Shown here piece after piece: positions 333 through 34,212 of a DNA stretch of 36,636 nucleotides. The stretch's first letter is position 1, and each line of letters opens with the position of its first letter. This DNA is from Sneathiella sp. GTDB lineage: Bacteria > Pseudomonadota > Alphaproteobacteria > Sneathiellales > Sneathiellaceae. The notes beneath the pieces were generated by a model. It worked only from the letters and a program-made list of their open reading frames with translations. It was not told the origin of the DNA and ran no database searches. The DNA is taken from contig NZ_NZMB01000004.1 in the NCBI RefSeq assembly GCF_002694385.1, positions 1 to 36,636 of the forward strand, written 5' to 3'. A program made the translations under genes and the position numbers.

Positions 333-410
<78 letters not shown>

Positions 411-2183: not shown

Positions 2184-2363
2184 ATGAAGGATGTCGGCCT
2201 CCGCATTCGCGTCCAGAGGGAGCTGCGTGAGCAGTTTCTGGAAGCTTGCCGTAAGCAGGATAAACCTGCGGCTCAGGTGCTGAGGGAGTTTATGCGGGCC
2301 TATATTCAAGAGTGTTCAGTCGCAAATCAAGCCATAGTGCCCAAGAAAAATCAGGTCAAATGA
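2184..2363 (+). CDS. Ribbon-helix-helix (CopG/RelB-like) protein
   Basis: A 59-aa protein. The N-terminus VGLRIRVQRELREQFLEA followed by a helix with KPAAQVLREFMRAYI is a typical beta-strand/helix/helix ribbon-helix-helix fold, as in ParD, RelB and CopG regulators. Such proteins bind operators as dimers. No toxin gene is paired with it. It sits 55 bp before the 36-aa ORF that leads the defence operon, so it is a candidate regulator of that operon, although it could be the remnant of a toxin-antitoxin pair. The fold is clear; the target is inference. Confidence 0.75.
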   Translation: MKDVGLRIRVQRELREQFLEACRKQDKPAAQVLREFMRAYIQECSVANQAIVPKKNQVK

Positions 2364-2418
2364 CGCTTTTTATTTGGACACAGTGGAGGAAAAGTTCTTT
2401 GAGTGAGGAAAAATAATT

Positions 2419-2529
2419 ATGAGGAAACTCACGCTGCAAGAACTGGAAAGCGGTTTTCTTGAAAACTCTAAAAAAGTGCGCGGAGTTCAGGGCAACGATT
2501 TCATGTTTGAGGGGCAGGACGAGAGATGA
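2419..2529 (+). CDS. 36-aa leader peptide/microprotein coupled to the helicase gene
   Basis: A 36-aa ORF starting ATG at 2419, with a GAGG-containing ribosome site about 8 nt before it. It ends TGA at 2527-2529, overlapping the helicase start codon at 2526 (ATGA). The product begins MRKLTLQELESGFLENSKK and is hydrophilic and helical, with no recognised domain. The overlap means translation of the 1724-aa helicase is probably coupled to it. It could be a small subunit of the system or simply a translational leader. No homologue can be named from sequence alone. Confidence 0.6.
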   Translation: MRKLTLQELESGFLENSKKVRGVQGNDFMFEGQDER

Positions 2530-5500
2530 AGGCCTTTCAATTCGATCACCATCTCATTGAGAGCTACGACAATTTTTCTCGGTCTTTCACTAAGATCGGG
2601 GCGCCGGATCTGAATGAGACGATTGCGCGTGCGTATGATGATGGCCGTTTCTGGCCCGACGCGCTTCTTTCTTTAAACCCGCGCTACGAAGCTGGGCCAA
2701 CCGTCGACGACCTTGTCAACTCGGGCGATCTTGATTCAGCTACCGCCCAGGTCTTTCGGTTCGGACCAACGCCGATCAGGTTTCACAGGCACCAGGGACA
2801 GGCGATCGCGAAGGCCAATGCTGGCAATAGTTTTGTTGTAACCACAGGGACTGGTTCTGGTAAGTCCCTCTGTTTTTTTGTTCCTATCGTTGATGCCATT
2901 ATTCGGGCTCGAAAGGCTGGGGGCTCGCCGAGAACGCGAGCTATCATCATTTATCCGATGAACGCTCTGGCCAATAGTCAGATCAAGGAGATCGATAAGT
3001 TTATCTCCCAATCGGGCTTGCCGAACGACCTTAAACCCGTCGTAAAAAGATACACTGGTCAGGAAAGCAAGGAAGAGCGCCAGCGGATTGCGGCAAACCC
3101 GCCCGACATCCTGCTTACGAACTTCATGATGGCTGAGCTCCTTTTGACCCGTCAAGACAGCCTTGATACTCAGGTCATAGAGAATGCCCGTGGCCTCGAA
3201 TTCATCGTTCTTGATGAGCTTCATACTTATCGGGGGCGGCAAGGTGCTGATGTGGCCATTCTTGTGCGGCGCCTAAGGGATCGCTGCACTCCCGACAAAG
3301 CTCCGCTTTGCATTGGTACATCGGCGACCATGGCCAGTGAAGGATCCGAAGAGGGCCGAGCAGTGGCTGTGGCGGAGGTGGCTTCACGCATTTTTGGCGC
3401 CTCAATCGGACCGGATGCCGTCATCGATGAATCCCTGCAGCGCGCGACTGATGACACGCTGAATTTGACAGATGTTCTCCCTGAACTTCCAGAGTTGGTT
3501 CGGAGCGAACTCCCAACCAACATGACCGATGAGACTTTGACGACACATCCGCTCGCAGTGTGGACTGAGCTGATGCTTGGTCTTCAAGACGGTCTGGAAC
3601 TCAAGCGCAGAAAGCCCATTCCCTTTGAAGATGCTGTAGAAAAGCTGTCAGCCGACAGCGGCGTCGACGCCGCAACATGTCAGCAAACCTTAGAGACTTT
3701 TCTGACATGTATCAGTCTGCCTGAAACCGAACGCGGTGGGGCCGGGAGTGGCGCGTTTTTGGCTTTCAAGCTTCATCGGTTCATCTCAGGGGCCGGGGAT
3801 ATTTTCACGACGCTAACTGACCAGCCCCGTCGTGTCTTGTTTGAAGGCCAGCTCGAAGATCCGGAGGCCCCAGGTAATCGTCTCTACCCCACCCGGTTTT
3901 GTCGGGAATGCGGGCATGAATTTCACGTGGTTACGAAGATTGAAGACGAAGGCGGTTTTCGATTCCTACCACGCAATATTGATGACACCCCAATTGAGGA
4001 TGATGAGGATGGGGACGTTGCTGGTTATCTGACTCCTACAGGTGAAGGCGTTCCGGACTACGCGTTCACTGGTGAGATCGAAACCTACCCCGAAGACTGG
4101 CGGGAGGACCGCAACGGCGTTGAGCGTCTGAGGGCACATCGCAAGAAACGCATACCTGAGATGGTGCGCCTTTCACCTGATGGTCGCTATCACGCATCTG
4201 GCAGCCAGTTTTGGTTCATACCCGGCAAGTTCGGTTTCTGCCCCTGTTGCTTAGACGAACCTCACCCTAGCATGCGGGAACGTAGCAAGCTTGCAGGGCT
4301 GTCTGGTGAAGGACGAAGTTCCGCGACCACGCTCCTCGTTTCGAGCACCCTCCAATGGATGAACGAGTCTGAGAGCGGCGTTTCGGAAGAGAAGCGGAAG
4401 ATTCTAGGCTTCACCGATAACCGCCAGGACGCTGCCCTCCAGGCTGGCCATTTCAACGATTTCCTTTTCGTAAGCCTGCTCCGCGGCGCGATACTGCGTG
4501 CTGTTCTCGATGCTGGCGAGGACGGCCTGACTGAAGATGAATTTGGTCTTCGAGTCGTAAAAGCCCTGGGATTTACGGCTGCCAATAAGGGAGCACGGAT
4601 CCACTGGATGCTGGATCCGATTGCTGGCGCAGTTATCCGTGAGGATGCTCAGCGCTCTTTGGCCAAGGTTCTGGCCCATCGGGTCTGGACTGACTTACGA
4701 CGAGGCTGGCGTTACACGAATCCGAGCCTGTCTGTCCTTCAGCTTATTGATGTCGAGTTCATTGGGCTCGACGAGATCGCGGAAGACAAAGGTCGACTAT
4801 TGGCCATCCTGCCAGATCTTGGGGCTTTGGATGATGACGCTCGAAAGCAGTTACTGAAGAGGCTTCTCGGAGCGATGCTTGAAGGCCTGGCGGTCGGCAC
4901 GGAGGCGCTGGAACTGGCCGTCCTCGACGGCGTGGCGCAGAAGTCTCGTTCCTTGCTACGCGTGCCTTGGTCGATCGATCTCAAGGAAAGTCCGCGAAGC
5001 CGGACAACGCTATTTCTCCAAGCCCCGGGCAAGAATCGCTTTGGGCTGCGAGAGGAGCAGACAATTCTGCGGGCTGGCCACAATTCACGGATCGCCAGAT
5101 TGATAAATCGAAAGAGCGTCATTGGCACTAAGCTAGGAAAGGAAGATTACCTAAACTTTGTGAACGGCCTTCTGGAGTTTCTCGCCGAGGAAGGTCTCGT
5201 TTCCTCTGTCGAAATTGAAGAGGATCTTCGTGGTTGGCGCCTAACGCCCTCGGCCATTCGCCTGGTGCCAGGCAAAGCCATTAGCGCGGGAGAGCCGCAG
5301 GGCAACCGCTATTTCAACGATCTCTACTGCTCGATCGCGGAAGACCTGAAGAGGGGTCAAAGTTCATTCTCGGGCTTGGAGGGGCGTGAGCATACTGCCC
5401 AGGTTTCTCAGAAGCAACGCGAGTGGCGGGAATGGCGTTTCCGTTTTGAGGAGGATGACCTCGCCGAGCTCAAGGAGCATGCTGGCGAGATTAAGGCGGC

Positions 5501-7700
5501 TGGAGAGTCTGACCAGTTCCTCCCGGCGCTCTTCTGTTCTCCCACGATGGAACTTGGCGTCGATATCTCGGCACTTAATGCGGTTTATCTCCGAAATGTC
5601 CCCCCAACGCCCGCGAACTATGCCCAGAGAGCAGGCCGTGCCGGGCGATCGGGACAGGCGGCTGTGATCATGACCTATTGCGCTGCGCAGTCGCCGCACG
5701 ATCAGTATTTCTTCGAGCGGCGTAATGACATGGTCGCTGGGGTCGTCAGGCCGCCTGCTCTCGACATTACCAACGAAGAGTTGGTGCGCTGCCATCTCCA
5801 TGCGGTTTGGCTTGCTGAGACGAAGCTCTCCCTCTCGCCCGACATCCCGGAGATTCTTGATCTCAAGCAGGATGAATACCCGCTGAAAGAGGAAATCCGC
5901 GAAGTCATCCTTAACTCTGGCCTGGTCACCAGCGCCAGAGCACCAATGAAGCGCGTGCTAGATCAGATCCTGACCTCGGTCGACAACAAGCCGCCGATTT
6001 GGATGGGTGATCCTGACGACTTCGTGCTCGAGGTTGCCATGAAGGCGCCGCAGGAGTTTGGTCGTGCATTCGATCGCTGGCGCGAGCTCTATAATTCAGC
6101 TCGGACGCAGCTCTCTGAAGCCAATGCACGCTCAGAGATTCCTGGGTTATCTGGCGCCGATCGCCGGAAGATCAAGGCCGCACAGATGCAGGCCAGTGAT
6201 CAGATCGCCATTCTTGAACAGGGCAATGCGTCAAACGGATCTGACTTCTATTCCTATCGCTACCTTGCAACAGAAGGATTCTTGCCGGGATACAACTTTC
6301 CACGCCTGCCTCTCTATGCCTTTGTGCCTGGCGAGGGCAAAACCAGCTCCTTCCTTCAGCGTGCTCGATTCCTTGCGATTTCGGAGTTTGGACCTCGCAG
6401 CCTCATCTATCACGAGGGACGAGCCTATCGTGTCATGAAAGCGAAGCTTCCGCCCGAGGTTCGAACGGGCGATGGCTCAGAACTAGCGACCAAAGACATT
6501 TACATTTGCCCTAATTGTGGAGCTTGCCACGAAGGTGAAGCGGAAAGGTGTCACGCTTGCGACGGACACATGGCAGGTGAGGTTCCGGTCAAACGGACTT
6601 TGCGAATCGACAACGTCGAAACGGCGCCCGTAGAACGGATTACTGCAAATGACGAAGAGCGGGTCCGACAAGGCTTTGACATTCAGACTGTGTTCGCCTG
6701 GCCAAAAAAGGATGAGCGTCTTCAGATCACACAGGTCGAGTTCAAATGCGAGGAGACATCGCTCCTTGTTCTGCAATATGCGAACAGCGCCGAGATTAGC
6801 CGGATCAACAAGGGCCTCAAGCGCCGCAAGGAAAAAACCGTTTATGGATTCATGATTGATCCGCGTAGCGGCTATTGGGCTAAGTCCGAAGACGAGAATC
6901 CAGACGAGGATGTTCCGCCGGACGTGGTCAGGCCGGTTCGTATCGTGCCGATAGTCCGTGATCGGAAGAATGCGCTGCTCTTGCGTTTTAAAGAGCCTCA
7001 AGCCTACTCCCTGGAAACCATCCCAACCGTTCAACATGCCTTGATGCGGGGCATTGAAGTTGCTTTCCAACTGGAGGAGGGGGAGATACTCGGCGAGCCT
7101 CTCCCGTCTCGCGACAACCGCCGAGCAATTCTAGCCTATGAAGCTACCGAAGGCGGCGCAGGCGTTCTTAACCGGCTTGTCGAAGACCCAAAGGCTCTGA
7201 GTAAGGTGGCCCGTCAGGCGCTCTACCTTATGCATTTTGACAATGTCGATGAGGCAATCGCTGGTGGGACGGCCGATCTGCTGGAGGATCGAGATGATGA
7301 GGCCTGCGTTCGCGGCTGCTATCGCTGTCTGCTGTCCTACTTCAATCAGCCGGATCACGAAATGATCGACCGGACGAGCGAAGAGGCTAGGCAGTTGCTG
7401 ATCGACCTGGCGCGGGGGGAGGTCATCGTGGCGGCGGCTCCAGAGAGATCCGGTGCTGAGAAAAGCTGGGAGGGAGCATTTGCAGAGTGCGGTCTCCCAC
7501 CGGCGGATACCTCCGGAATTACTTTGGCTGATGTGGAGGTCAGTTTTGCGTGGCGGAGCCATTTCGTTGCTGCCGCCACTACGACTCTGACCGAAGCGGC
7601 ACGGGAAACCGCGAAGGCCAAGGGATGGACTGTATTCGAGCTTCTGGATAACCCTTCGGCGGGTGTGCCGGAGGAAATGATTTCGCTGGTGAAGGGCTGA
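2526..7700 (+). CDS. Giant DEAD/H helicase with C-terminal DUF1998 (DruE/MrfA-like; DrmA+DrmB fusion-like)
   Basis: A 1724-aa superfamily 2 helicase. The first RecA domain has the Walker A motif GTGSGKS (about 108-114), DELH (230-233) and TSAT (about 265). The second RecA domain has ELGVDIS and QRAGRAGR (about 1034-1041). About 750 residues separate them, including cysteine clusters CRECGH (about 458) and CPCC (about 571). A zinc-ribbon-like CPNCGACH...CHAC lies at about 1325-1345. The C-terminus is DUF1998-type: EATEGGAGVLNRL followed by CVRGCYRCLLSYFNQPDH (about 1594-1611). In DISARM, helicase (DrmA) and DUF1998 (DrmB) are separate; Druantia DruE and the repair helicase MrfA join them. As the first large gene of the operon it probably supplies the DNA-translocating core. 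Start 2526 overlaps the upstream stop. The family is secure; the role in defence is inferred from context. Confidence 0.92.
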   Translation: MKAFQFDHHLIESYDNFSRSFTKIGAPDLNETIARAYDDGRFWPDALLSLNPRYEAGPTVDDLVNSGDLDSATAQVFRFGPTPIRFHRHQGQAIAKANAGNSFVVTTGTGSGKSLCFFVPIVDAIIRARKAGGSPRTRAIIIYPMNALANSQIKEIDKFISQSGLPNDLKPVVKRYTGQESKEERQRIAANPPDILLTNFMMAELLLTRQDSLDTQVIENARGLEFIVLDELHTYRGRQGADVAILVRRLRDRCTPDKAPLCIGTSATMASEGSEEGRAVAVAEVASRIFGASIGPDAVIDESLQRATDDTLNLTDVLPELPELVRSELPTNMTDETLTTHPLAVWTELMLGLQDGLELKRRKPIPFEDAVEKLSADSGVDAATCQQTLETFLTCISLPETERGGAGSGAFLAFKLHRFISGAGDIFTTLTDQPRRVLFEGQLEDPEAPGNRLYPTRFCRECGHEFHVVTKIEDEGGFRFLPRNIDDTPIEDDEDGDVAGYLTPTGEGVPDYAFTGEIETYPEDWREDRNGVERLRAHRKKRIPEMVRLSPDGRYHASGSQFWFIPGKFGFCPCCLDEPHPSMRERSKLAGLSGEGRSSATTLLVSSTLQWMNESESGVSEEKRKILGFTDNRQDAALQAGHFNDFLFVSLLRGAILRAVLDAGEDGLTEDEFGLRVVKALGFTAANKGARIHWMLDPIAGAVIREDAQRSLAKVLAHRVWTDLRRGWRYTNPSLSVLQLIDVEFIGLDEIAEDKGRLLAILPDLGALDDDARKQLLKRLLGAMLEGLAVGTEALELAVLDGVAQKSRSLLRVPWSIDLKESPRSRTTLFLQAPGKNRFGLREEQTILRAGHNSRIARLINRKSVIGTKLGKEDYLNFVNGLLEFLAEEGLVSSVEIEEDLRGWRLTPSAIRLVPGKAISAGEPQGNRYFNDLYCSIAEDLKRGQSSFSGLEGREHTAQVSQKQREWREWRFRFEEDDLAELKEHAGEIKAAGESDQFLPALFCSPTMELGVDISALNAVYLRNVPPTPANYAQRAGRAGRSGQAAVIMTYCAAQSPHDQYFFERRNDMVAGVVRPPALDITNEELVRCHLHAVWLAETKLSLSPDIPEILDLKQDEYPLKEEIREVILNSGLVTSARAPMKRVLDQILTSVDNKPPIWMGDPDDFVLEVAMKAPQEFGRAFDRWRELYNSARTQLSEANARSEIPGLSGADRRKIKAAQMQASDQIAILEQGNASNGSDFYSYRYLATEGFLPGYNFPRLPLYAFVPGEGKTSSFLQRARFLAISEFGPRSLIYHEGRAYRVMKAKLPPEVRTGDGSELATKDIYICPNCGACHEGEAERCHACDGHMAGEVPVKRTLRIDNVETAPVERITANDEERVRQGFDIQTVFAWPKKDERLQITQVEFKCEETSLLVLQYANSAEISRINKGLKRRKEKTVYGFMIDPRSGYWAKSEDENPDEDVPPDVVRPVRIVPIVRDRKNALLLRFKEPQAYSLETIPTVQHALMRGIEVAFQLEEGEILGEPLPSRDNRRAILAYEATEGGAGVLNRLVEDPKALSKVARQALYLMHFDNVDEAIAGGTADLLEDRDDEACVRGCYRCLLSYFNQPDHEMIDRTSEEARQLLIDLARGEVIVAAAPERSGAEKSWEGAFAECGLPPADTSGITLADVEVSFAWRSHFVAAATTTLTEAARETAKAKGWTVFELLDNPSAGVPEEMISLVKG

Positions 7701-7704
7701 TGCA

Positions 7705-10473
7705 ATGACTGTGAACTTTGCACCAGGTGATCTGGTCCGGGCACGGGGGCGAGAATGGGTCGCGCTTCCTGCTCCGCGCGAGGACATTCTTGCCCTTCGC
7801 CCGCTTTCAGGCAGCGAGAACGATACGGTTATTCTTGACCCATCGCTCGAAATAATGCCGGTCGAACCGGCGCGCTTTGAATTGCCGGAGAATGCTGTAT
7901 CCACGGTACAGTCGAAGGCTGCCCTGCTGGCCGATGCGCTGCGACTGACATTGCGTCGTGGCGCGGGCCCCTTTCGCTCCGCAGCTCAGCTTGCGTTTGA
8001 GCCACGAATATACCAGTTGGTCCCGCTGCTTATGGCGCTCCGCCTTCAGATACCGCGGCTGCTTATTGCAGATGATGTCGGGATCGGAAAAACCATTGAG
8101 GCTGGCCTCATCCTTCGGGAACTGATGGACCGAGGCGAGGTCGATGCTTTCTCCGTCCTCTGTCCACCGCATCTTGTCGATCAGTGGCTCGTAGAATTGA
8201 AGTCTCGCTTCGGCATCGACGCAGTCGCGGTCACTTCAGGGACGGCGGTGCGACTGGAGCGTGGCCTTCCTCTCGCGCAGACGCTGTTTGACGCTTACCC
8301 TTTCACAGTCGTCAGTCTCGATTACATCAAGGCCGAAAAACGCCGGGAAAGCTTTGCTCGCGCTTGCCCCGACTTTGTAGTCGTCGACGAGGCTCATGCC
8401 TGCGTTGGCACACATAAAGGCCGGCAACAGCGCTTTGAGCTCCTGTCGGGCCTCGCCAGAGATCCGGATCGGCGCATGATAATGCTCACTGCAACTCCAC
8501 ATTCCGGGGATGAAGAAGCTTTCGCGCGTCTACTCTCGCTGACCGATCCTTCCTTCGCCTCTATGAACTTTGAAGACAGCAGATACAGAGAACGTCTCGC
8601 GCGGCACTTTGTGCAGCGTCGACGGATCGATCTTGTCTCTGGGGACTGGGGTGAAAATCGGGCCTTTCCCGAACATGAAACCACCGAATTCCCATATCGT
8701 CTGTCACAGGCCCATCTGGATTTTCAGGAAGAGGCTATCGACTACTGTATGGGGGTCGTCTCGAAAGCCGGAGCAGGCCAACGTGAGCGCCGACTGGCTT
8801 TCTGGGGCACTCTTGCCCTCATGCGCTGTGCCGGCTCATCTCCTGCTTCGGCGCTGAGCGCCCTGCGCAATCGCGCCGCTAATGAGGCGGATCGTCTCGA
8901 GCCACAAATCTACGACGAGGACGGAGATGATGAGGACGCCGTCGATATCGAACCAAACACCATTTTCGAAACCGATCCGGCGCTCCTAGCGCTCATCGAG
9001 CGGGCGGAAGTCCTCCTCCAAAATGTCGATCCAAAGCTCGAAGCCTTGGTTGAGGCGTTGACGCCTCTTATCAAGCAGGGAGCTAACCCGGTCGTCTTCT
9101 GCCGCTACCTAGCAACAGCGGAACATGTCCGCGATCGTCTCAGAAAGTCTTTTCCAAAGCTCGCCATTGAAGCTGTCACCGGCGTTCTGACGCCGGATGA
9201 GCGGCGGGATCGTGTTGCTGAAATGGCGTCCGCCGAGGGGGAGAAAGAGGTTCAGCGAATTCTTGTCGCTACCGATTGTCTGTCCGAAGGGATCAACCTG
9301 CAACAGCTGTTCGATGCGGTTGTACATTACGATCTGTCCTGGAATCCGACACGGCATCAGCAGCGGGAGGGGCGGGTCGACCGCTTTGGACAGCCTGCAG
9401 AGCTGGTTCGCTCGATCATGATGTTCTCGCCGGACAGCGCGATCGACGGGGCCGTTCTGGATGTGATCCTGCGCAAGGCCGAAGAAATCCGCAAGGCAAC
9501 GGGCGTAATCGTTCCGCTGCCTGATGAACGCGGGCCGGTGACCGATGCGCTGATGGCATCGATGATGTTGCGGCGAGGAAGCTCCGGCCAGCAGATGGTG
9601 CTTGATCTGCGTCTCGGCGACGGCACGAAAGTGATGGAGACGCGCTGGCGTGATGCGTCCGACAAGGAAAAGAAATCGCGGGCGATATTCGCGCAAAATG
9701 CCATGAAGCCACAGGAAGTTGCCCCCGAATGGGAGAAGGTGCGGAATCTCCTCGGATCGCCAGAGGAAGCAAGGGGCTTTGTCGAACGGGCAATGGCGCG
9801 CTTCGGGGTGCCACTTGAGCAGCGCAAGTCTGTATTGCTTGCGCATGTCCACGCCCTGAACACAGGCCTCAAAGAACGCTTGGCACAGAGGGGCATGGAG
9901 AAGTCTGTGCACCTCGCCATGGCTGAACCTGCACCGTCCGGGACAGCGCTTCTGACCCGGACACATCCGCTAACGGCAACATTGGCGGAGTCGTTGGTCG
10001 AAGCCTCGCTTGATCCGGAGACGCTCTCGGAGCTTGGAATTGGTCGTGTCGGGGCATGGCCGACGCCGGCCGTCCAGCAGATGACGCGCCTCGCACTTCT
10101 GCGTATCCGTTTCAAGCTGACGGTTCACGCCCGGAAGGAGCGCCTGCTACTGGCAGAGGAAGCCGCCCTCGTCGCTCTTCAGGGTACAGAGGTGCTGGCG
10201 GTTGGAGACGCGGCGCGGGATCTCCTCGCCACACCCGCTGTCGCTGATCTCGCGCCGGTCGCGCGTGACCGCTTTATTGCCGGGGCAAAGCAAGACCTGC
10301 CTTTGTTGATCGAAGGGCCTCTCGCGGATTTCGTCAGGGCGCGGGCTGATGAGCTTGTGCAAGACCACGCGCGCCTCAGGGCTGCGGCGGGATCGGCCTC
10401 ACGCGTCAGCGTGGAACCCGTTCTGCCGCCCGATGTGATCGGCCTCTTTGTCCTGATGCCGAGCGAGGAATAA
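7705..10473 (+). CDS. SNF2/RapA-like helicase (DrmD-like)
   Basis: A 922-aa SNF2-family ATPase. Motifs are DDVGIGKT (about 124-131, a variant of DEVGLGKT), DEAH (about 228-231), LTATPHSG, and in the second lobe SEGINLQQ and QQREGRVDR (about 552-560). The length and architecture match RapA/HepA-like helicases, including DrmD of class 1 DISARM. It starts 4 nt after the upstream helicase stop and ends 3 nt before the methylase start, so it is clearly co-transcribed. It is expected to move along double-stranded DNA and remodel bound protein rather than unwind it. DrmD equivalence is a judgement from fold and neighbours. Confidence 0.9.
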   Translation: MTVNFAPGDLVRARGREWVALPAPREDILALRPLSGSENDTVILDPSLEIMPVEPARFELPENAVSTVQSKAALLADALRLTLRRGAGPFRSAAQLAFEPRIYQLVPLLMALRLQIPRLLIADDVGIGKTIEAGLILRELMDRGEVDAFSVLCPPHLVDQWLVELKSRFGIDAVAVTSGTAVRLERGLPLAQTLFDAYPFTVVSLDYIKAEKRRESFARACPDFVVVDEAHACVGTHKGRQQRFELLSGLARDPDRRMIMLTATPHSGDEEAFARLLSLTDPSFASMNFEDSRYRERLARHFVQRRRIDLVSGDWGENRAFPEHETTEFPYRLSQAHLDFQEEAIDYCMGVVSKAGAGQRERRLAFWGTLALMRCAGSSPASALSALRNRAANEADRLEPQIYDEDGDDEDAVDIEPNTIFETDPALLALIERAEVLLQNVDPKLEALVEALTPLIKQGANPVVFCRYLATAEHVRDRLRKSFPKLAIEAVTGVLTPDERRDRVAEMASAEGEKEVQRILVATDCLSEGINLQQLFDAVVHYDLSWNPTRHQQREGRVDRFGQPAELVRSIMMFSPDSAIDGAVLDVILRKAEEIRKATGVIVPLPDERGPVTDALMASMMLRRGSSGQQMVLDLRLGDGTKVMETRWRDASDKEKKSRAIFAQNAMKPQEVAPEWEKVRNLLGSPEEARGFVERAMARFGVPLEQRKSVLLAHVHALNTGLKERLAQRGMEKSVHLAMAEPAPSGTALLTRTHPLTATLAESLVEASLDPETLSELGIGRVGAWPTPAVQQMTRLALLRIRFKLTVHARKERLLLAEEAALVALQGTEVLAVGDAARDLLATPAVADLAPVARDRFIAGAKQDLPLLIEGPLADFVRARADELVQDHARLRAAAGSASRVSVEPVLPPDVIGLFVLMPSEE

Positions 10474-10476
10474 GCC

Positions 10477-13400
10477 ATGGCCCGTAAACCCGTCACAGAT
10501 ATGTCGGCATGGCCCTCTCTCACGCTTGAGGGCAATCTCATTGCGCCTGCAATGGTCGCTAAAATTGACCGAAGGGAAGCGCCTGAACAATCTGAGGAAT
10601 CCTACGGTGTTCGCAAGGGACTGACGGCACGCGAGGAAATCTCGACCGCTTTTCGTGTTGGGCAATCGCATTACGATGCCTTTGCGGCGCTTGAAAACCC
10701 TTCCGTTGATGCCACGCGCCGGTTTGTCCGGAATTTTCTCAAAGAAACTTTCGGTTTCGACGATCTTGTCGCTGAAGGCGATATCATTTCGTTCATCGCG
10801 GGGACCCGCATACCAGTTGTCGTGGTTCCGCCGGAGGAATCGCTGGACAAACGAAGCCCAACGCTCTCCGTTGATCGCTCGCGATCTCCGGCCTTCGCCC
10901 TTCAGGATTATCTCAATGACAGGGAGGAGGCGCTGTGGGGCCTTGTGATCAACGGCACCCATCTTCGCCTCATGCGGGACAATGCCTCGCTGACGCGGCC
11001 CGCATACATTGAAGCCGACCTGGCCCAAATCTTTGCCAATGAGGATGCAGCATCCTTCGCCGCCCTCTTACTGATAATCCATCGCTCCCGCTTCGGAGCC
11101 GAAGGTGCACCCGCCACAGATTGCGCCCTCGAACGGTGGCGAGAAACCGGCTCCAAAGAAGGCGAAGCGGCCCGCGACCGTCTGGCCGATCAGGTCCAGA
11201 TCGCACTTAAGGTGCTCGGCTCCGGCTTCCTCGAGGCTAACCCCGACCTAGCCGCCAAACTGAAATCCGGCGAAGCGAACCTCACCGAATGGTTCAACGA
11301 GCTCCTGCGCCTCGTCTACCGTTTGATCTTCCTCATGGTGGCTGAAGACCGGAACCTCTTGCACCCGGAAAAGGCCAAGGCCGACGCCCGCAAGCTGTAC
11401 GCCGAAGGCTACAGTCTCGCTGCGCTTCGTACACAATGCTTCCGCGCTGCTACATGGGATAAGCACTTCGACCGCTTTGAAGGCATCAAGGTCGTTTTCC
11501 GCGCCCTCGCACATGGAGAGGAGCGGCTTGCCCTGCCGGCCCTCGGCGGCCTTTTTTCCGAGGACAAGCTGCCCCACCTCGAAACCGCGCGCTTGCGGAA
11601 CAAAGGCTTCATGGAGGCGCTCTACCGCCTGTCCTGGCTCTCCGACAAATCTGGCATGGTCCCCGTCAACTGGCGCGCGATGGAAACCGAGGAACTGGGC
11701 TCGGTCTACGAATCCCTCCTCGAACTCCAGCCGCAGCTGGGCGATGACGGCAAGACGCTGCTCTTCGCCTCCGAGGCCGCCGAGCAGAAGGGCAACCAGC
11801 GCAAGACCACCGGCTCCTACTATACGCCCGACAGTCTGGTTCAGGCGCTGCTCGACACCGCGCTCGACCCCGTGCTCGACAAGACCGAGGCCGAGGCGGC
11901 CGATCCCGCCAAGGCGCTGCTGAAGCTCGCGGTCATCGACCCCGCCTGCGGCTCGGGCCACTTCCTGCTGGCCGCCGCCCGCCGCATCGCCACGCGCCTC
12001 GCCCGCATCCGCGCCGAGGGCACGCCCTCGCTCGCCGATTTCCGACATGCGCTGCGCGATGTCGCGCGCTGCTGCATCCACGGGGTGGACCGCAACCCGA
12101 TGGCGGTGGAGCTGACCAAGGTCGCGCTCTGGATCGAGACGGTGGACCCCGGCCTTCCGCTGGGCTTCTTCGACGCGCAGATCCTCTGCGGCGATGCGCT
12201 GCTGGGGGTGTTCGACCTGAAGGTGCTGCAGGACGGCATCCCCGATGCCGCCTATAAGCCGCTGACCGGCGACGACAAGGACACGGCGAAATACTACCTG
12301 CAGGCCAACCGCGCTGCGACGTCGGGTCAGGGCGGGTTCGATTTCGGCACCGGCCAGGTTGCCATGCCCGAGATGAAGCCGCTGGCGGTGGATTTTTCGG
12401 GCTTCCGCGAACTGCCCGAGGATACGGTCGAACAGATCGGGGCCAAGGCTGCGCGGTTCATGGAACTGCGCAAGGGGCAGGCCTTTGTGTGGGCGAGGGC
12501 GGCGGCGAACCTTTATGTCGCGGCCTTCCTGCTGCCCAAGGTGGGCGGCGCACCGGCGGGGGCCTCGGCCCGCACAGTGCCGACGACCGAGGAGCTGTGG
12601 ATGGCCCTCAATCAGGGCAAAATCAGGCAGGCGATGATGGACGCGCCCATGGCCGCCCGCCGCGCCCGCGCCTTTCACTGGCCGCTGGAATTCCCTGATG
12701 TGATGCAGCGCGGCGGGTTCGACGTGGTGCTGGGCAACCCGCCGTGGGAAAAATACACTATTCTCGAGAGGGAATTTTTCGTCGGCATTCCTGAAATCGC
12801 CGCTGAGGCCAACGCTACAAAACGCAAAAAGGCGATCGAGGCAGAACTGAGGCGGTCGCCAGCACTCGCTCAGGCTTGGAACGACGCGCAAAGAGAGGCT
12901 TCGGCGAGGGGGGCGTTTGTTCGCGGTTCCGGCAGATTCCCTCAATCCGCTGTCGGCGAATTGAATCTTTATCCCCTTTTTGGGGAACTATCGACACACT
13001 TGATCAAAAAGTCAGGTTGGTCAGGTTTGATACTAAAATCATTGATGTTTACAGGATCAACATGGAAGGCATTCACAGATAAGCTGATCGTTAGCGGACA
13101 GTTGCATGCCGTGTTTGATTTCAAGAACTGGGAGATGCTCTTTTCGTCGGTTGGATTTCATGAGCGCTACTCTCTGGCGACAATGGGACCAGCCCAACCC
13201 GATGCGAGTATTCAACTTGCAGTCGGCCTTACGAACCCAGCTCAGCTATCTGATGGCAAGTCGGTCATTGATGTTGATAGGGCCTTTCCTCGTCGCGTGA
13301 ATCCAGAGACTGGAACGCTCCCGCAATGCGAGACTCCTGATGACCTCCGGATTCTCACGCGTGTTTCTAATTCCTTGCCTACCTTAGGGCAGTCGGATTG

Positions 13401-14841
13401 GAGCGCTCGCTATTCCAGCGGCCTCCATATGACAGGTGACGCGGCGGAACTGCGGAGCAGAGAGAGCCTAGAAGGAGATGGATTCGAACTCAGGGGCTCT
13501 TGGTTTGTGCGGGGTGTTGAGGAGTTTGCGCCTGTCTATGAGGGCAAATTCATCCACCAGTACGATCATCGCTTTGCAACCTTTGATGGAATTCCTGTCG
13601 AAAAGAGGTTTGGCATCAAGGCAGCGACGATTAACCCAACGGAAGAGCAAAAGGCTGATCGAGGTTTTGAAATTGTGCCGCGATATTGGGTGAGGCGTAA
13701 ATTCTATGAAGAGAATACTCTTTCCAGGCGGATTAATTACGATTGGAACATCGCGTTCAGAGACACGACGAATGTCATCAGCAATTTTAGAACAGCGGTG
13801 GGTTGCATTGTTGGTCCGACCGCATTCAACTACAAGTGCCCGAATGTCGTGATAGCCGAGAGTGATCCGACCGCCTCTGCTCTTTTTCTTTCCATGTTTA
13901 ACTCAGTCCCATACGACTATTTGCTACGACAAAAATTTTATGGGGCTAATTTCACTAAGTCGATGCTACTTCAAACATTTGTAGTTTCACGCGATAATCT
14001 TGCTCGCCATGAAGAGGCCTTACTCAATGCAGTGGCGTCCCTGACTAACACATCGGGTAGCGTCGCAAGATTTTGTGATGAGCTTGATCGTGTTGATCTT
14101 AGCGTAATTGATTTGGAGCAACGTATCGAACTCCGCGCTTGGGTCGATGCGCTATATTTCCACCTCTTCGGTTTTGAAGCCGATGAGATTGGCTATGTCT
14201 TCGACACATTTCCGATTTGGAAGGATAAATCGACCGAGATTTGGGGTCGGTTCCTCGAAAAAGAACGGACGAGGGCAATTTTTTCCGAACTCGGCCTGGC
14301 CGACGTTGTCGCTACGCCCGTCCCGTCACCCATTCAACTCCCGCCACTTGAGCAAATTGCCGCTGGCGTCTGGGCATGGCCGCAAGGTGTCGATGAGCGC
14401 GACCGCGTCCGTACCCAGCTTCGGGCGGTGGTAGGCATTTTGCCGAAGTCCTCCGACCTCCGCCGCGTGCGTCTCGCGACGCTGGCCTGCTTGCAACCGA
14501 GCCTGCTCGACGGCTTCCTTTCTGATACAGATCGCCAGGAGTGGCGGCGAATCGTGGGGCATCCGTCCGGCGTGACGCAATTGGTGCCGCCAACCAACGC
14601 GGCGTGGGGCGCGGCCTTCAATGAGCTTGTGTCGTCGGCCGTTCTGACTGTATCGCCGGATGGCGACGCATGGAGCGCGGGCCCAACTCTCGACCGATCA
14701 ACCCTAAGCGTTGACGACCCGGCAGTCGGACGGGCACTTTTCGCATGGTCAAGGCTTCAGGCCGTCGATCTGGAACAGGGATTGACGCGGGTGTCTGCTG
14801 ACATCCTCCCTTTCATTCAGGAGGGTCGCCTTGCAGCCTGA
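10477..14841 (+). CDS. Large N6-adenine DNA methyltransferase (Eco57I/PglX/DrmMI-like)
   Basis: A 1454-aa gamma-type class I methylase. The SAM site is DPACGSGHF (about 488-496) and the catalytic motif is NPPW (754-757), which indicates adenine-N6 methylation. The first 480 residues contain WGLVINGTHLRLMRD, similar to the element following nuclease-like domains in type IIG enzymes, but no ExK pair is visible, so cleavage is probably done by another subunit. Residues after about 757 should include the target-recognition domain. Base composition changes sharply there: line 11941-12000 counts 49 of 60 G+C, and 13921-13980 counts 20 of 60. It probably protects host DNA and gives the system its specificity. 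The next gene overlaps its last 11 nt. Confidence 0.92.
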   Translation: MARKPVTDMSAWPSLTLEGNLIAPAMVAKIDRREAPEQSEESYGVRKGLTAREEISTAFRVGQSHYDAFAALENPSVDATRRFVRNFLKETFGFDDLVAEGDIISFIAGTRIPVVVVPPEESLDKRSPTLSVDRSRSPAFALQDYLNDREEALWGLVINGTHLRLMRDNASLTRPAYIEADLAQIFANEDAASFAALLLIIHRSRFGAEGAPATDCALERWRETGSKEGEAARDRLADQVQIALKVLGSGFLEANPDLAAKLKSGEANLTEWFNELLRLVYRLIFLMVAEDRNLLHPEKAKADARKLYAEGYSLAALRTQCFRAATWDKHFDRFEGIKVVFRALAHGEERLALPALGGLFSEDKLPHLETARLRNKGFMEALYRLSWLSDKSGMVPVNWRAMETEELGSVYESLLELQPQLGDDGKTLLFASEAAEQKGNQRKTTGSYYTPDSLVQALLDTALDPVLDKTEAEAADPAKALLKLAVIDPACGSGHFLLAAARRIATRLARIRAEGTPSLADFRHALRDVARCCIHGVDRNPMAVELTKVALWIETVDPGLPLGFFDAQILCGDALLGVFDLKVLQDGIPDAAYKPLTGDDKDTAKYYLQANRAATSGQGGFDFGTGQVAMPEMKPLAVDFSGFRELPEDTVEQIGAKAARFMELRKGQAFVWARAAANLYVAAFLLPKVGGAPAGASARTVPTTEELWMALNQGKIRQAMMDAPMAARRARAFHWPLEFPDVMQRGGFDVVLGNPPWEKYTILEREFFVGIPEIAAEANATKRKKAIEAELRRSPALAQAWNDAQREASARGAFVRGSGRFPQSAVGELNLYPLFGELSTHLIKKSGWSGLILKSLMFTGSTWKAFTDKLIVSGQLHAVFDFKNWEMLFSSVGFHERYSLATMGPAQPDASIQLAVGLTNPAQLSDGKSVIDVDRAFPRRVNPETGTLPQCETPDDLRILTRVSNSLPTLGQSDWSARYSSGLHMTGDAAELRSRESLEGDGFELRGSWFVRGVEEFAPVYEGKFIHQYDHRFATFDGIPVEKRFGIKAATINPTEEQKADRGFEIVPRYWVRRKFYEENTLSRRINYDWNIAFRDTTNVISNFRTAVGCIVGPTAFNYKCPNVVIAESDPTASALFLSMFNSVPYDYLLRQKFYGANFTKSMLLQTFVVSRDNLARHEEALLNAVASLTNTSGSVARFCDELDRVDLSVIDLEQRIELRAWVDALYFHLFGFEADEIGYVFDTFPIWKDKSTEIWGRFLEKERTRAIFSELGLADVVATPVPSPIQLPPLEQIAAGVWAWPQGVDERDRVRTQLRAVVGILPKSSDLRRVRLATLACLQPSLLDGFLSDTDRQEWRRIVGHPSGVTQLVPPTNAAWGAAFNELVSSAVLTVSPDGDAWSAGPTLDRSTLSVDDPAVGRALFAWSRLQAVDLEQGLTRVSADILPFIQEGRLAA

Positions 14842-16792
14842 TTTCTTCCAACCAGAAGAGATCGAGTTCACCTTGCCGGAAGGCCAGCAGGGGCCACGGC
14901 TTTGGGTCAGGCGCGTTGCACTCTGGCAGGATGCCTCAACACTCCTGCGTGACATTTCGCTTCGCCCGGGCGTCAACATCATCTGGTCGCCCGATCTTTC
15001 GACCAATGGCAGGGGCGCCACACCGCACGGGAGCGGGAAGTCGACGTTCTGCCGCCTGATCCGTTATTGCCTCGGGGAACGGCATTTTTCCAACGAAGAC
15101 CAGCGCCCGCTGATGCAACACAAACTGCCCGACGGGTTTGTCGGCGCAGAGATCATGGTCGACGGTGAATGTTGGGTTGTGACCCGTCCGATCGGTATGA
15201 ACCTGCCGTCGCGCGCGGTGCAAGCTAATCGTATCGAGGACACGTTCGACCAACTGCTGGTCGGCACCAATCCCCAAACGATCGCACCCGTGATTTCTGA
15301 CCGGTTCTGCTCCGGCTATCGCGATCAGGTGCCTGATAATCTCAAATCAGACCAGGTCTGGGACGTGCTGCTCGGATGGCTTGCTCGCGACCAGGAGTGC
15401 CGACTGGATGATGTGTTCGACTGGCGATCAAAACGGTCTGGGTCCGGATCACCCGCGCAGGAACTGTCTCTTGAAACAAAGCTGACCGTCGTTCGCCTCG
15501 CAATTGGCGCTCTGTCGGCAGCGGAAGTTTCAGCGTCTGCTCAGGCAAGGACGTTCTCAAACGAGCGCGATAGACTTCGCCAGAAGTTGGGTCACCTCGA
15601 TTGGTTTCAGCGACAGAGGTTTGATGAACTCTGCGAAAGCCTTTCATACCCGAAGGATCGCGATCCGTCCGACGAGATCGTACGGAAAGAGCTCATCGAT
15701 CGCGCCAATGAGGAACTGGCAAAAGTCGCGGGCACGGATCATACGAAGGGCCGTACGCGGAGCGCGGATCAGCAAAAAAAGCGTCAAGCGCTTCAGGCTG
15801 AGCGAAACAAAATTGTTGAGGAAAGGGCTGACTTAAAGGCTCTACTGAAAGGCATTCCGAACGAAATTGCCGCTGCACGTACCGAGCAGGGCACGGAACA
15901 AGCCCGGCTGGAGACGGGCGTGATCGTCCGATGCACAATTTGCCACGTGAACATCGACGAAGTGAAAGCCAACGGCTGCGGGATCTCGCTGCAGCGCTGC
16001 AATCTCGACGAGGTTCGAACCCGGATTGATCGCGCGGAGAAGCGGATTGCGGATATGGAGCAGCAAAGGTCAACGCTCCCCGGTGAGATCTCCAGGTTAG
16101 ATGCAGAGATAGCCAGCCTGGATCGGGAGATCGCCGCAATTGATGAGGCGTTCGTGAAAGTCGAGAAACAGCTGTCTGACGAAGACAAGAAACACATAAG
16201 CGCGCGGGAACTTGTGCGGGAAGCAAATTGGTTTGACCGCCAATTGAGTGAACGAGCTGCGGTCAGCGCACGCGTGGAATCTATCGAGAGTCAAATAGAT
16301 GGACTGCGTGAATCTATGCGATTGGAACGGGAGCGCGCTGCTGCCGCTATCGGCAACCTCGAAACCATATTCCAGCAACTTGTCGCGAGTCTCATGCCCC
16401 GAGGATGCTCCGGCAAAATGTGGCTGGACGGGAACGGTTTGCATCCGGAGATACTTCTTGACCGCGGCATCGGGCTTTCTACGGCCGCTGTGGAGTCATT
16501 CAAGATCGTGGCGTTCGATCTGGCTGCGATGATCCTTTCCGCGAACGGCAACGCGAGCATACCGTCATTCCTCATCCATGACAGTCCACGCGAAGCTGAT
16601 CTGGACGCTGATATATACTCGAATCTATTTGATTTCGTTTTGAGCCTCGAAGAAAAGTCAAGCCCTCCGCCCTTCCAGTATATCGTCACCACAACAACAG
16701 CCCCTTCGCAGCAGGCGCTTGCTCACGAAGCGATGCGTTTGCAGCTCTCATCCACACCGCCTGAGGCGCGGTTGTTTGCGATGGACTTCTGA
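14831..16792 (+). CDS. Rad50/SMC-like ATPase with central CxxC
   Basis: A 653-aa ABC-type ATPase. Walker A GSGKST is at 67-72. A long hydrophilic coiled-coil middle surrounds CTIC (368-371) with two more cysteines about 10 and 18 residues later. The C-terminal lobe contains FLIHDSPREADLD, with Walker B and D-loop character. This is the plan of Rad50, SbcC and DUF2326-type proteins, in which the CxxC forms a zinc hook. Start is TTG at 14831, chosen because CAGGAGGG lies 5 nt upstream and no nearby ATG fits; it overlaps the methylase end by 11 nt. Its stop overlaps the HNH gene start (TGATG). It may act as sensor or clamp for the nuclease next to it; that part is inference. Confidence 0.85.
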   Translation: MQPDFFQPEEIEFTLPEGQQGPRLWVRRVALWQDASTLLRDISLRPGVNIIWSPDLSTNGRGATPHGSGKSTFCRLIRYCLGERHFSNEDQRPLMQHKLPDGFVGAEIMVDGECWVVTRPIGMNLPSRAVQANRIEDTFDQLLVGTNPQTIAPVISDRFCSGYRDQVPDNLKSDQVWDVLLGWLARDQECRLDDVFDWRSKRSGSGSPAQELSLETKLTVVRLAIGALSAAEVSASAQARTFSNERDRLRQKLGHLDWFQRQRFDELCESLSYPKDRDPSDEIVRKELIDRANEELAKVAGTDHTKGRTRSADQQKKRQALQAERNKIVEERADLKALLKGIPNEIAAARTEQGTEQARLETGVIVRCTICHVNIDEVKANGCGISLQRCNLDEVRTRIDRAEKRIADMEQQRSTLPGEISRLDAEIASLDREIAAIDEAFVKVEKQLSDEDKKHISARELVREANWFDRQLSERAAVSARVESIESQIDGLRESMRLERERAAAAIGNLETIFQQLVASLMPRGCSGKMWLDGNGLHPEILLDRGIGLSTAAVESFKIVAFDLAAMILSANGNASIPSFLIHDSPREADLDADIYSNLFDFVLSLEEKSSPPPFQYIVTTTTAPSQQALAHEAMRLQLSSTPPEARLFAMDF

Positions 16793-17544
16793 TGATTGAA
16801 AGCCCTCAGAGTTTCATCGTCTCAACCGAGTGCAGCAAGGCCGCTGAACAGCATGGCTTTCGGCGTCGGCTTGGTGAGACCGATGGGTGGGCGGCGTTCC
16901 AGTCGACGACGGCGCAGGGAACGATCTGGCTGGCTGCCGAAGGTCCGGCTGGCCCATGGTTCCTCGCGCTCGACCATGGAGGCGTGATCACGGAAGCGGG
17001 CCTGGCGGCCGACCCGCTGCAGGGCCCTGGCTTATCACGCTTCCGGTTCGGGACAATGCGGGAACTCTATTTAATCCTGCCTCGGATTTACCGGCTCGCT
17101 GCAAGCCTTCCGGATGCGCCCCTTCGCACGTTCCAGGCGAAGGTACAGGGGCTCCCCAGAACAACCGAGACCGAGCGTCTTGTCGTGCAGCGTATTGGAC
17201 AGGACATTTTTCGCACCAGCCTCCTGGAATACTGGAACGGTCAATGCCCGCTCACTGGCATCACCGATACCGCTCTAGTCCGTGCCTCGCACATCATCCC
17301 CTGGAAGGATTGCGCGAGCGACGCCGAACGTCTGGACATTCACAACGGTCTTCTGCTCTCGGCGCTATGGGACGCGGCCTTCGACCGGGGCCTGGTGACC
17401 TTTGACGATGAAGGCCGACCACAATTCTCGCCGGCCCTGAGCGAGACGGCCCGCGCCGAGTTACGCTGGGACGTGCCAATCCAGTTGACCGACAAGCACA
17501 GGGAAAAACTCGCTTGGCACAGGGCGCACCATTTCCTGAACTAA
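16792..17544 (+). CDS. HNH endonuclease (HNH_2 type)
   Basis: A 250-aa protein with an HNH_2 domain at about 145-215: CPLTG, then ASHIIPW (His167), then DIHNGLLLSALWDAAFDRG (Asn185). Many HNH_2 proteins have His where Trp193 stands, so the third ligand is changed or supplied elsewhere. The N-terminal 130 residues are an unrecognised domain that could bind DNA or a partner. The start ATG overlaps the ATPase stop by one base. As the only clear nuclease of the operon it probably does the DNA cutting. It ends the operon and is followed by a hairpin and T-tract terminator region. Confidence 0.88.
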   Translation: MIESPQSFIVSTECSKAAEQHGFRRRLGETDGWAAFQSTTAQGTIWLAAEGPAGPWFLALDHGGVITEAGLAADPLQGPGLSRFRFGTMRELYLILPRIYRLAASLPDAPLRTFQAKVQGLPRTTETERLVVQRIGQDIFRTSLLEYWNGQCPLTGITDTALVRASHIIPWKDCASDAERLDIHNGLLLSALWDAAFDRGLVTFDDEGRPQFSPALSETARAELRWDVPIQLTDKHREKLAWHRAHHFLN

Positions 17545-17558
17545 CAATCAATAAGCGC

Positions 17559-17717
17559 GTCCGGCATTGCCGGACCGGGCTGTCGTGAACCAAGCCCCGG
17601 CTATGCCGGGTCTTGGCCATTCGGCGTCCATCCCTCGCGCATTTAGGCGGCTCTGCCGCCCCGGATGAGCGGCCTTTGGCCGTTTCTTTTTTGTCTTTTT
17701 TTGGGGCCTGCGGCCCC
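17559..17717 (+). terminator. Array of five triloop hairpins, including a terminator
   Basis: Five GC-rich hairpins, each with a 3-nt loop, follow the defence operon: 17559-17575 (loop ATT), 17590-17616 (TAT), 17646-17660 (TCT), 17670-17682 (TTT) and 17703-17717 (TGC). The fourth is followed by TTTCTTTTTTGTCTTTTTTT and is a good intrinsic terminator. The rest of 17545-17921 holds no convincing gene; an open frame at 17613-17903 is probably a by-product of high GC. Confidence 0.65.
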
Positions 17718-17921
17718 TTGGCCGTCAAGGCCAGGCCCTTCGTTTCTCTGCGGGCGTCCGCCGGGGTTTCCCCAACCTTCCGTCCACTTCGTTGCCGTGC
17801 AGGTCGGGTGATCCCCCTCCCACGGCGGACGGCCTGTGACGGCCTCACCCCGCTCATTGCCGCGTGGCTAGTTCGGTTGCAGCAGCAGCGCAACCGCGAC
17901 TAACCAAAAGGAGCAAAGGCA

Positions 17922-18926: not shown

Positions 18927-19406
18927 TTACGGTTTCGCGGCGTAGGCTCCGGCGCTTGCTCTGCGCCTGCGCCATGGTGCGCCGGTTGCCACCGGCGGCA
19001 CCGTTCTTGTCGGTGACGGTTGCGTCATTGGCTTCGTTGCCGGTGTCTGTGCAGCCTGCATTGTTTTACGCTGCGCCTCGGGTAGGGAATCGAGCACCGA
19101 TGCCCGTGCCTTTTCATCCGACCACGCCAGACGCTCGGTGTCCTCGTGGCTGACCGTCCGCCGTGCGCGGCGGAGCAACTCATCCGGCTTGAAAGGGTTC
19201 GTGCCTTCGCTCGCCAATACCTGTAGCTCCAGCAGCTCGTTCTGGTCCGTCGGATCAAACAGCACCTGGGCTGTGATGCTGCGTTCGCCGACCTTCACCC
19301 GGTGTTTTCGGTCGTAGCGGCTCGACTGAAACACGCCCTCATGCCAGCGGATCACATCGCCTTCGATAAACTCCGCCCCGCAGACCACCCATGTCTGCCC
19401 GGTCAT
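18927..19406 (-). CDS. Conserved-type hypothetical protein of the mob region
   Basis: A 159-aa protein of no recognised family. The first 90 residues look like a compact beta-rich domain (start MTGQTWVVCGAEFIEGDVIRW). The last 50 are low-complexity, rich in Pro, Thr and Arg. Its ATG overlaps the stop of the upstream pentapeptide-repeat gene (ATGA), so the two are translationally coupled. Its place beside the coupling protein suggests a role in transfer or establishment, but the sequence does not show which. Confidence 0.7.
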   Translation of the reverse strand: MTGQTWVVCGAEFIEGDVIRWHEGVFQSSRYDRKHRVKVGERSITAQVLFDPTDQNELLELQVLASEGTNPFKPDELLRRARRTVSHEDTERLAWSDEKARASVLDSLPEAQRKTMQAAQTPATKPMTQPSPTRTVPPVATGAPWRRRRASAGAYAAKP

Positions 19407-20164: not shown

Positions 20165-20260
20165 GATTATCTCCCGTATAGTATAGGAGATATTATACAC
20201 GCCGAAGTAGAATCTAATATTAACGGCGCAATTAATTGTTAAATATCCGGTGTTTAATGA

Positions 20261-22898: not shown

Positions 22899-22902
22899 CC
22901 GG

Positions 22903-34166: not shown

Positions 34167-34212
34167 CTCATAACCTGAAGGTCAGAGGTTCAAATCCTCT
34201 CCCCGCAACCAA
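34167..34212 (+). repeat. attR: attR: displaced tRNA-fMet 3' half
   Basis: This 46-bp stretch covers anticodon loop to CCA. The T-stem is AGAGG/CCTCT instead of GCAGG/CCTGC on the left; both pair fully. It is the original host tRNA end displaced by integration, and the host terminator still follows it. Confidence 0.88.

Follow-up and report, generated by a model that had tools for sequence, protein, structure and literature searches.

We analyzed an operon of five large genes in a stretch of 36,636 nucleotides (nt) from Sneathiella sp. (assembly GCF_002694385.1, contig NZ_NZMB01000004.1), referred to here at its full length as the window. A first-pass annotation, made from the sequence without database searches, had proposed that these genes form a restriction-type defense system of a composition matching no named system. 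All five open reading frames (ORFs) lie on the + strand and form one tight operon, with intergenic distances of 4 nt and 3 nt followed by overlaps of 11 nt and 1 nt (Table 1), as that annotation had described. Its placement of the start at position 2184 needs correction: the first gene starts at 2526, and 2184-2363 is a 59-amino acid (aa) ORF that has no tblastn-detected relative ahead of the helicases at other loci. Because the same gene order recurs in relatives, linkage of the five genes goes beyond chance, and the possibility that they are unrelated neighbors was ruled out.

Table 1. Coordinates of the features discussed in the text
Feature	Positions	Strand	Remarks
Left attachment repeat	385..409	+	tRNA-Met 3' end, 25 bp
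Gene 1	2526..7700	+	YprA/DruE-like SF2 helicase with fused MZB/DUF1998 domain, 1724 aa
Degenerate Vsr-like C-terminal domain of helicase	7413..7697	+	lacks DGxxH motif; tail comparison, profile alignment
Gene 2	7705..10473	+	BrxHII/DpdE/DrmD-like SNF2 helicase, 922 aa
Gene 3	10477..14841	+	PglX/DrmMI-like N6-adenine methylase, 1454 aa
NPPW catalytic motif of methylase	12736..12747	+	DNA homology to L089 and L020 stops 2-3 nt past motif
Swapped methylase segment, probably target recognition	12750..14286	+	no DNA match to L020, which matches both flanks
Methylase C-terminal extension, tentatively LmuC-like fold	14380..14811	+	accompanies ATPase
Gene 4	14831..16792	+	DUF2326/LmuB-like coiled-coil ABC ATPase, 653 aa, TTG start
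CxxC zinc-hook-like motif (CTIC) in ATPase	15932..15943	+	
Walker B stretch HDSPRE of ATPase	16577..16594	+	H, D, P, R, E invariant in 25 aligned rows
Gene 5	16792..17544	+	HNH nuclease, 250 aa; HNH domain approximately residues 121-250
Right attachment repeat	34187..34211	+	25 bp, 2 mismatches

Searches with Pfam and PADLOC upheld the identities first given to the five products, namely a helicase-DUF1998 protein, an SNF2 protein, an adenine methylase, an ATPase and an HNH nuclease. Gene 1 unites DEAD, Helicase_C and MZB (the DUF1998 domain) in a single 1724-aa ORF, confirming the proposed fusion of DrmA and DrmB functions, and its best PADLOC model was DruE (1.8e-81). The SNF2 protein matched the PADLOC 'DpdE' model PDLC02853 over nearly its whole length (1.5e-192), with DrmD next, while gene 3 matched Eco57I/N6_Mtase and DrmMI (3e-73) and gene 5 matched HNH_2 (3.6e-11). 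These DruE, DrmD and DrmMI matches agree with the suggestion of a restriction-type operon that mixes DISARM- and Druantia-like parts. The family scan found no PLD family (DrmC) among the five operon proteins, as anticipated, and genes 4 and 5, the ATPase and the HNH nuclease, stand where a nuclease would be expected. The ATPase first described as Rad50-like is a coiled-coil ABC ATPase with a zinc-hook-like CxxC motif, and its family is DUF2326/LmuB (LmuB model, 2.6e-23), with one weak match to DruC as well (5e-4).

The statement that no named system has this core could not be retained. ARMADA type I, as described in the main text of the preprint by Bell et al. 2025 (PMC12458937), comprises a YprA-like helicase, a BrxHII-like SNF2 protein and a PglX-like methylase, in that order, and genes 1-3 of the window encode a fused YprA-like/DUF1998 helicase, a BrxHII-like SNF2 protein and a PglX-like methylase in the identical order. 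Judged by its sequence, the operon core is of an already known kind, ARMADA type I. The ARMADA I trait of CxxC zinc modules between RecA1/RecA2 and in the OB region also appears to be present in the window helicase, as the pairs CREC, CPCC and CPNC, CHAC, by a by-eye motif reading of the translation that involves no fold. The window differs from ARMADA type I in that its Vsr domain is degenerate, with no predicted active nuclease, and in that an HNH gene and an LmuB-like ATPase with a methylase extension have been added; because the Vsr domain lacks DGxxH, we filed the operon as a derived ARMADA I variant. The same main text reports that ARMADA II protects without killing the cell and needs all four of its genes, and describes ARMADA II islands on tRNA-targeting mobile elements, as is the case around the window operon. 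In that main text, supplements apart, HNH occurs once, in a reference title, and DUF2326, SMC, Lamassu and Rad50 are absent.

Likenesses to other systems are partial. With class 1 DISARM the window shares a DrmD-like SNF2 protein and a DrmMI-like methylase, but it carries the DrmA and DrmB functions in one ORF and has no PLD nuclease (DrmC) among the five operon genes. Its helicase is closest to the DruE models of Druantia, whereas a methylase and an SNF2 protein set it apart from that system; no DruA, DruB, DruD or DruH model was among the PADLOC matches listed for the five proteins (for genes 2 and 3, the best 25 of 41). Lamassu and ABC-3C systems resemble it in their ~650-aa ATPase, as the window ATPase matches LmuB and has a CxxC motif and an altered Walker B, and more weakly in the LmuC-like part of the methylase; they differ in that this part is here fused to the methylase, no LmuA model is matched and the HNH gene is not tied to the ATPase. 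In BREX and BREX-related systems, HNH proteins and HNH + OLD-ABC dyads are described in the main text of PMC12839542 as auxiliary effectors, and 'compensatory' nucleases occur where a helicase-nuclease fusion is missing. There, too, an HNH protein and an ABC ATPase join a methylase-helicase defense, and the idea of a compensatory nuclease is shared, although the ATPase belongs to another family than that of the window; DUF1998, YprA, Vsr, ARMADA and Lamassu go unmentioned in that main text. Neither the replacement of the nuclease nor the coupling of ATPase to methylase was found in the literature searched; Krishnan et al. may already list such neighborhoods.

Decay of the helicase tail and retention of the HNH gene

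To place the operon among its relatives, loci were gathered around the SNF2 gene, yielding 121 after removal of duplicates and remnants. Since genome contigs contributed the best 80 of 543 loci by similarity to the window, and plasmids 22 regions picked by hand from tblastn lists, the sample leans to the window's kin. C-terminal tails of the helicases fall into two classes: intact tails carry a DF.Y....[VI]DGPHH-like pattern, while the degenerate class, defined by the missing DGxxH motif, comprises the window and 91 other loci. Profile alignment showed the degenerate tails to be homologous to the intact ones (96.8%, E 2e-10), as was a second degenerate group (98.8%, E 6e-17).

An HNH gene was present in 78 of the 79 testable loci with a degenerate Vsr domain (13 further degenerate loci end too early); in L017, the one locus without it, an IS21 element lies 80-90 nt past the methylase. 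Among loci with an intact Vsr domain, 5 of 17 testable ones had the gene (9 more intact loci lie beyond the 17), and all five sit in one 11-row clade of the SNF2 tree. We did not lean on a Fisher test of Vsr against HNH, as it counts kin as independent. By Fitch counts, the HNH gene changed 3 times over a branch length of 1.72 in the 11-row intact clade (8 testable) and once over a length of 22.05 in the degenerate clade of 92 rows (L050, whose tail lies outside the sequence covered, and 91 degenerate loci; 79 testable), a difference in rate with a binomial p of 0.0014 that is post hoc and comes from one tree. Distances among HNH proteins followed those among SNF2 proteins (Spearman rho 0.76, 0/300 permutations, n=80), as did those among ATPases, at 0.48 (0/300 permutations, n=44). 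Records with a degenerate tail and an HNH gene cover Pseudomonadota, Myxococcota, Nitrospirota, Acidobacteriota and Verrucomicrobiota (77 tallied, 21 without a name); many named records are metagenome-assembled genomes (MAGs), some of which may be misbinned.

We rooted a 28-row helicase tree on L171, an Allomeiothermus locus of ARMADA-II order in which the Vsr motif of the tail is intact, and on L170, an E. coli locus with a 2114-aa helicase that we take for DruE by size alone. The eight basal rows are all intact, seven with the YprA-like gene first and one (L130) with it last, and the six that are testable lack the HNH gene. That gene appears within one 18-row clade (support 100) containing both intact and degenerate rows, and the window seems to be nested among ARMADA-I-like loci with an intact Vsr domain, in a tree whose two outgroup branches are both long and which does not include the preprint's own reference sequence. 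On both larger trees the Vsr state changes twice. We favor the order in which the HNH gene was gained, the Vsr domain was then lost and the HNH gene was thereafter kept, an order read from the trees and resting on few events.

The predicted structure of the HNH protein was modeled with high local confidence (predicted local distance difference test score, pLDDT, 96.8), and its residues 121-250 fold like VcaM4I (Z 15.9 over 128 residues; profile E 3e-37). Residues H167, N185 and D198 are invariant across 57 aligned HNH sequences and are likely the catalytic columns. A narrow HNH motif pattern fit 32/79 and is too strict. We did not interpret the N-terminal domain (approximately residues 1-121), which gave weak frataxin/YdhG-like and ygaC matches (Z 5.8-5.9). 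The three PADLOC matches of the protein were all HNH/REase models, with no LmuA model among them.

The set also drew on regions from further genomes: matches at the cut-off were found in 13 of 398 genomes of the phylum, 12 of 300 of the order and 8 of 48 of another class, the last yielding nothing new. In phage records, no region matched as much as 80% of either the HNH protein or the SNF2 protein. Left out of the set were L001-L005, L055 (a copy of L007), L009, L125 and L133, which lack a complete SNF2 core; L100-L110, which are short and for which the window or longer versions stand in; L111-L114 (partial SNF2 matches); L134-L141 (repeat matches); L142-L153 (short, with longer versions used); and L167, which has no SNF2 gene. 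L165, L166 and L168 served only to extend L119, L120 and L118 downstream, and L094 and L019 were coded as having the HNH gene. L023 and L024, from MAGs named Hyphomonas and Thauera, agree exactly in their SNF2 rows and in gene coordinates, reflecting either recent transfer or misbinning; both were counted. At the junction of the SNF2 and methylase genes, L126 carries a Phd/VapC toxin-antitoxin pair (14800-15434) and L161 has ~1.4 kb extra.

The ATPase, the methylase extension and the exchange zone

The ATPase gene behaves differently from the HNH gene. Its presence changes 24-26 times on the tree, so that of the linkage first proposed for the ATPase and HNH pair, the HNH part holds almost without exception in the degenerate branch and the ATPase proves optional. 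What the ATPase does accompany is a long methylase: a single-ORF methylase of at least 1400 aa was found in 41 of 41 loci with the ATPase versus 5 of 52 without it. Of 21 independent pairs on starred branches, 17 differed the same way and 0 the opposite way (p 1.5e-5). We built a profile from the last 165 residues of the methylases that come with an ATPase. In a five-fold hold-out it matched 37 of 46 loci with the ATPase and 0 of 59 without, and 24 independent pairs gave ~19 the same way and 0 opposite (median p 3.8e-6). Used without the hold-out, it matched 45/46 and 0/59, with the profile built from the ATPase-bearing rows themselves. The ATPase ORF overlaps that of the methylase in 27 of 37 listed ATPase ORFs. 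Viral contigs gave no match to the ATPase, and 5 of 289 genomes of the class gave one at E<=0.001, full length only in the window's own genome.

An AlphaFold2 model of the extension built from 23 rows reached a pLDDT of 85.6 and a predicted template modeling score of 0.75. When it was compared with 350,542 PDB chains by Foldseek, LmuC ranked 1 (E 0.11), 2 (E 0.18) and 8 (E 0.62). A structural aligner scored LmuC at Z 6.8, 6.4 and 6.1 over 123-131 residues, values below 8, which by the aligner's own note may mean just a common arrangement; its other listed matches (cullin, ORC, MukE/F, other winged helices) spanned 67-97 residues at Z up to 6.5. LmuC is favored because the adjoining ATPase, taken on its own, is best matched by LmuB, the partner of LmuC. 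An LmuC-like extension is the leading reading of the predicted fold, unproven and below the usual level of trust.

The ATPases themselves are consistent with LmuB. The LmuB model PDLC03859 of PADLOC matched 24 of 25 aligned ATPases, a CxxC motif lies in the middle of the coiled coil in 30 of 44 rows (14 lack it), and at least 35 of 44 show a Walker B of the HDSPR type. This CxxC and this Walker B fit the account of LmuB in a review (PMC10586767), according to which the protein has ~650 aa, an altered Walker B and, in many cases, a zinc hook. A profile of the ATPases searched against PDB sequences found mostly coiled coils; it also reached the LmuB chain 9ny5_D (E 0.0034; query 217-547, much of it coiled coil), which we do not take as proof. 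Two kinds of ATPase, with or without CxxC, were noted in L074, L080, L097, L120, L121, L123, L124 and others.

Comparison of 12 pairs of relatives at the DNA level located a zone of exchange that begins just past the NPPW motif of the methylase and extends to the HNH gene. In 8 of them homology stops no more than 60 nt downstream of the NPPW codons (window/L089, window/L020, L032/L033, L032/L115, L035/L089, L041/L042, L051/L057, L095/L161). It ends ~480-590 nt before the motif in L027/L039 and L097/L124 and ~700 nt past it in L061/L077, and runs through in L094/L095. L032 and L033 are 95.3% identical before the NPPW end point and 93% identical again from the HNH gene onward, while between they are unlike except for one 301-nt stretch (92%). 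The window and L020 share the ATPase, and the middle part of the methylase is all that distinguishes them, implying that this part and the ATPase can be exchanged independently of each other. Around the point where homology ends, the G+C fraction of the window drops: it is 0.64 at 11-13 kb and 0.54 at 13-15 kb.

The slot before the HNH gene in the 78 degenerate loci that have one holds a DUF2326 ATPase in 32, nothing in 23 and other genes in 23. Families recognized among slot proteins of degenerate and intact loci (25 of 52 listed, plus L132) included AAA_15/21, HD, UvrD-like, GmrSD, RNA ligase and M78, and in part of that scan 6 of 20 proteins had no family. The HD-domain and RNA-ligase proteins, in L036, L041, L042, L083 and L160, are odd company for a DNA restriction operon.

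The surrounding mobile element

As the first-pass annotation had stated, the operon lies on an integrative and mobilizable element: it sits between two 25-bp repeats derived from tRNA-Met, together with integrase, relaxase, NikA-like and TraG-like coupling-protein genes. The integrase (453-1882) is read as two ORFs, 453-1091 and 716-1882, that overlap and lie in different frames; this may reflect an immobile element or an assembly error. Directly after the operon comes an ArdC-like anti-restriction gene (17922-18824; PF08401, PF18818; PHROG anti-restriction). The region 19403-24680 encodes a pentapeptide-repeat protein and a TraG-like coupling protein (both on the - strand), a NikA-like protein and a MobA/VirD2-type relaxase, as in a mobilizable element, and 25504-28702 an AbiEi/AbiEii-like pair followed by an AbiJ-like protein. 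An AbiE pair also lies just upstream of the ARMADA genes in L013. A 506-aa ORF (31804-33324) matched nothing in Pfam, NCBIfam or PHROG. The tRNA-Met 3'-end repeat recurs, either exactly or with 2 mismatches, on contigs C10, C20, C21 and C25 of the same genome, representing additional tRNA copies or else further islands that use this target.

A probable derived ARMADA branch: explanations and significance

The operon probably represents a derived branch of ARMADA type I in which the HNH nuclease cuts in trans and an optional Lamassu-type sensor is docked on the methylase. On the composition, gene order, co-occurrence and Vsr motif decay read in these loci, we would build the following mechanism. 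The methylase would mark host DNA by means of an exchangeable target-recognition part, and the two helicases would engage unmarked phage DNA and translocate on it. Cutting would have been performed by the fused Vsr domain in ancestral ARMADA and would here fall to the HNH protein in trans. Where present, the ATPase would dock on the methylase through the LmuC-like extension and add a checkpoint: it would sense DNA ends or branched DNA, the role proposed for LmuB in Lamassu, and license the cut.

Other explanations fit parts of these data. The HNH protein and the ATPase could be backup or second-line effectors, with ARMADA here restricting by blocking or unwinding DNA and the HNH nuclease acting only on failure. 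This has a parallel in the auxiliary HNH proteins, HNH + OLD-ABC dyads and 'compensatory' nucleases of BREX (main text of PMC12839542), and intact-Vsr loci with an HNH gene do exist; a backup gene would be expected to be lost sometimes, however, whereas this one was kept in 78 of 79 testable degenerate loci, with one change over 22 units of branch length, and it co-diverges with the SNF2 gene. We regard a backup role as unlikely. If the helicase tail had stayed an active nuclease by rearranging its active site, nothing would have been replaced; the similar length that the degenerate domain keeps in the listed tails, and the motifs of their own such as WR(S/N)H that many of these share, would suit this reading. 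Yet none of the 92 degenerate rows has DGxxH (its absence defines the class), the residues aligned there by profile are non-acidic, and no new conserved acidic set was seen by eye in the listed tails, an inspection that was not systematic; we think a working tail very improbable.

It is very improbable that the ATPase and HNH genes are a separate two-gene defense system that merely adjoins ARMADA in a defense island. An ATPase that comes and goes would suit such a pair, as would L009 (Paracoccus versutus), which has both genes (14992-17746) and in which no ARMADA gene was found, but L009 is a single case, downstream of a TraG-like gene. Moreover, of the 78 degenerate loci that have an HNH gene, 23 lack the ATPase and carry the HNH gene directly behind the methylase, and the ATPase is coupled to a methylase domain, its ORF overlapping that of the methylase in most listed cases.

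Several observations weigh against the derived-branch reading or its parts. Five intact-Vsr loci (L063, L071, L082, L159 and L157) also have an HNH gene, although that of L157 is a 143-aa piece 7.7 kb off. As the Vsr motif was lost only about twice, the Vsr-HNH pattern reflects few events rather than many independent ones, and an independent-pairs test of the two had no power. In a 54-row tree of the helicase body and SNF2 protein, the HNH-less rows L088-L123 join the HNH-bearing intact clade (support 99), such that the gene was either gained once and then lost in L088-L123 or gained more than once. The 28-row helicase tree, by contrast, unites the HNH-bearing loci in one clade, so that a single gain is possible rather than established. 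With regard to the sensor, the HNH gene is often present without the ATPase and so does not need it, and long methylases occur without an ATPase in L063, L072, L154, L159 and L162. The held-out extension profile missed 9 of 46 ATPase-bearing loci, whose extensions are diverged or different and which may go with the CxxC-less kind of ATPase. No Foldseek match of the extension reached E 0.001, its Z scores to LmuC fall short of 8, and LmuC was found by sequence in 0 of 45 extension members with PADLOC and in none with PDB sequences.

Within the derived-branch reading, we put forward tentatively, as possible rather than probable, a more specific arrangement. The methylase might act as the middle component of a Lamassu-type sensor, with an LmuC-like domain fused to a sequence-specific methylase docking the LmuB-like ATPase and thereby wiring the sensing of DNA ends or structure to self/non-self recognition. 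The recognition part and the sensor would share an exchangeable zone, bordered on one side by the constant helicase-methylase core and on the other by an equally constant HNH nuclease in place of the decayed Vsr domain, and the whole would be a plug-in chassis combining ARMADA and Lamassu.

Taken together, these loci offer a natural experiment on cutting by ARMADA: basal loci have the fused Vsr domain, some members of the adjoining clade have both nucleases, and a large branch has the HNH nuclease with the Vsr domain lost. This distribution across branches makes the question of the ARMADA effector directly testable. From the tight coupling of the ATPase to the extension, a Lamassu-type sensor and a DNA methylase are predicted to be physically connected and, if true, such a link would join two families so far kept apart.

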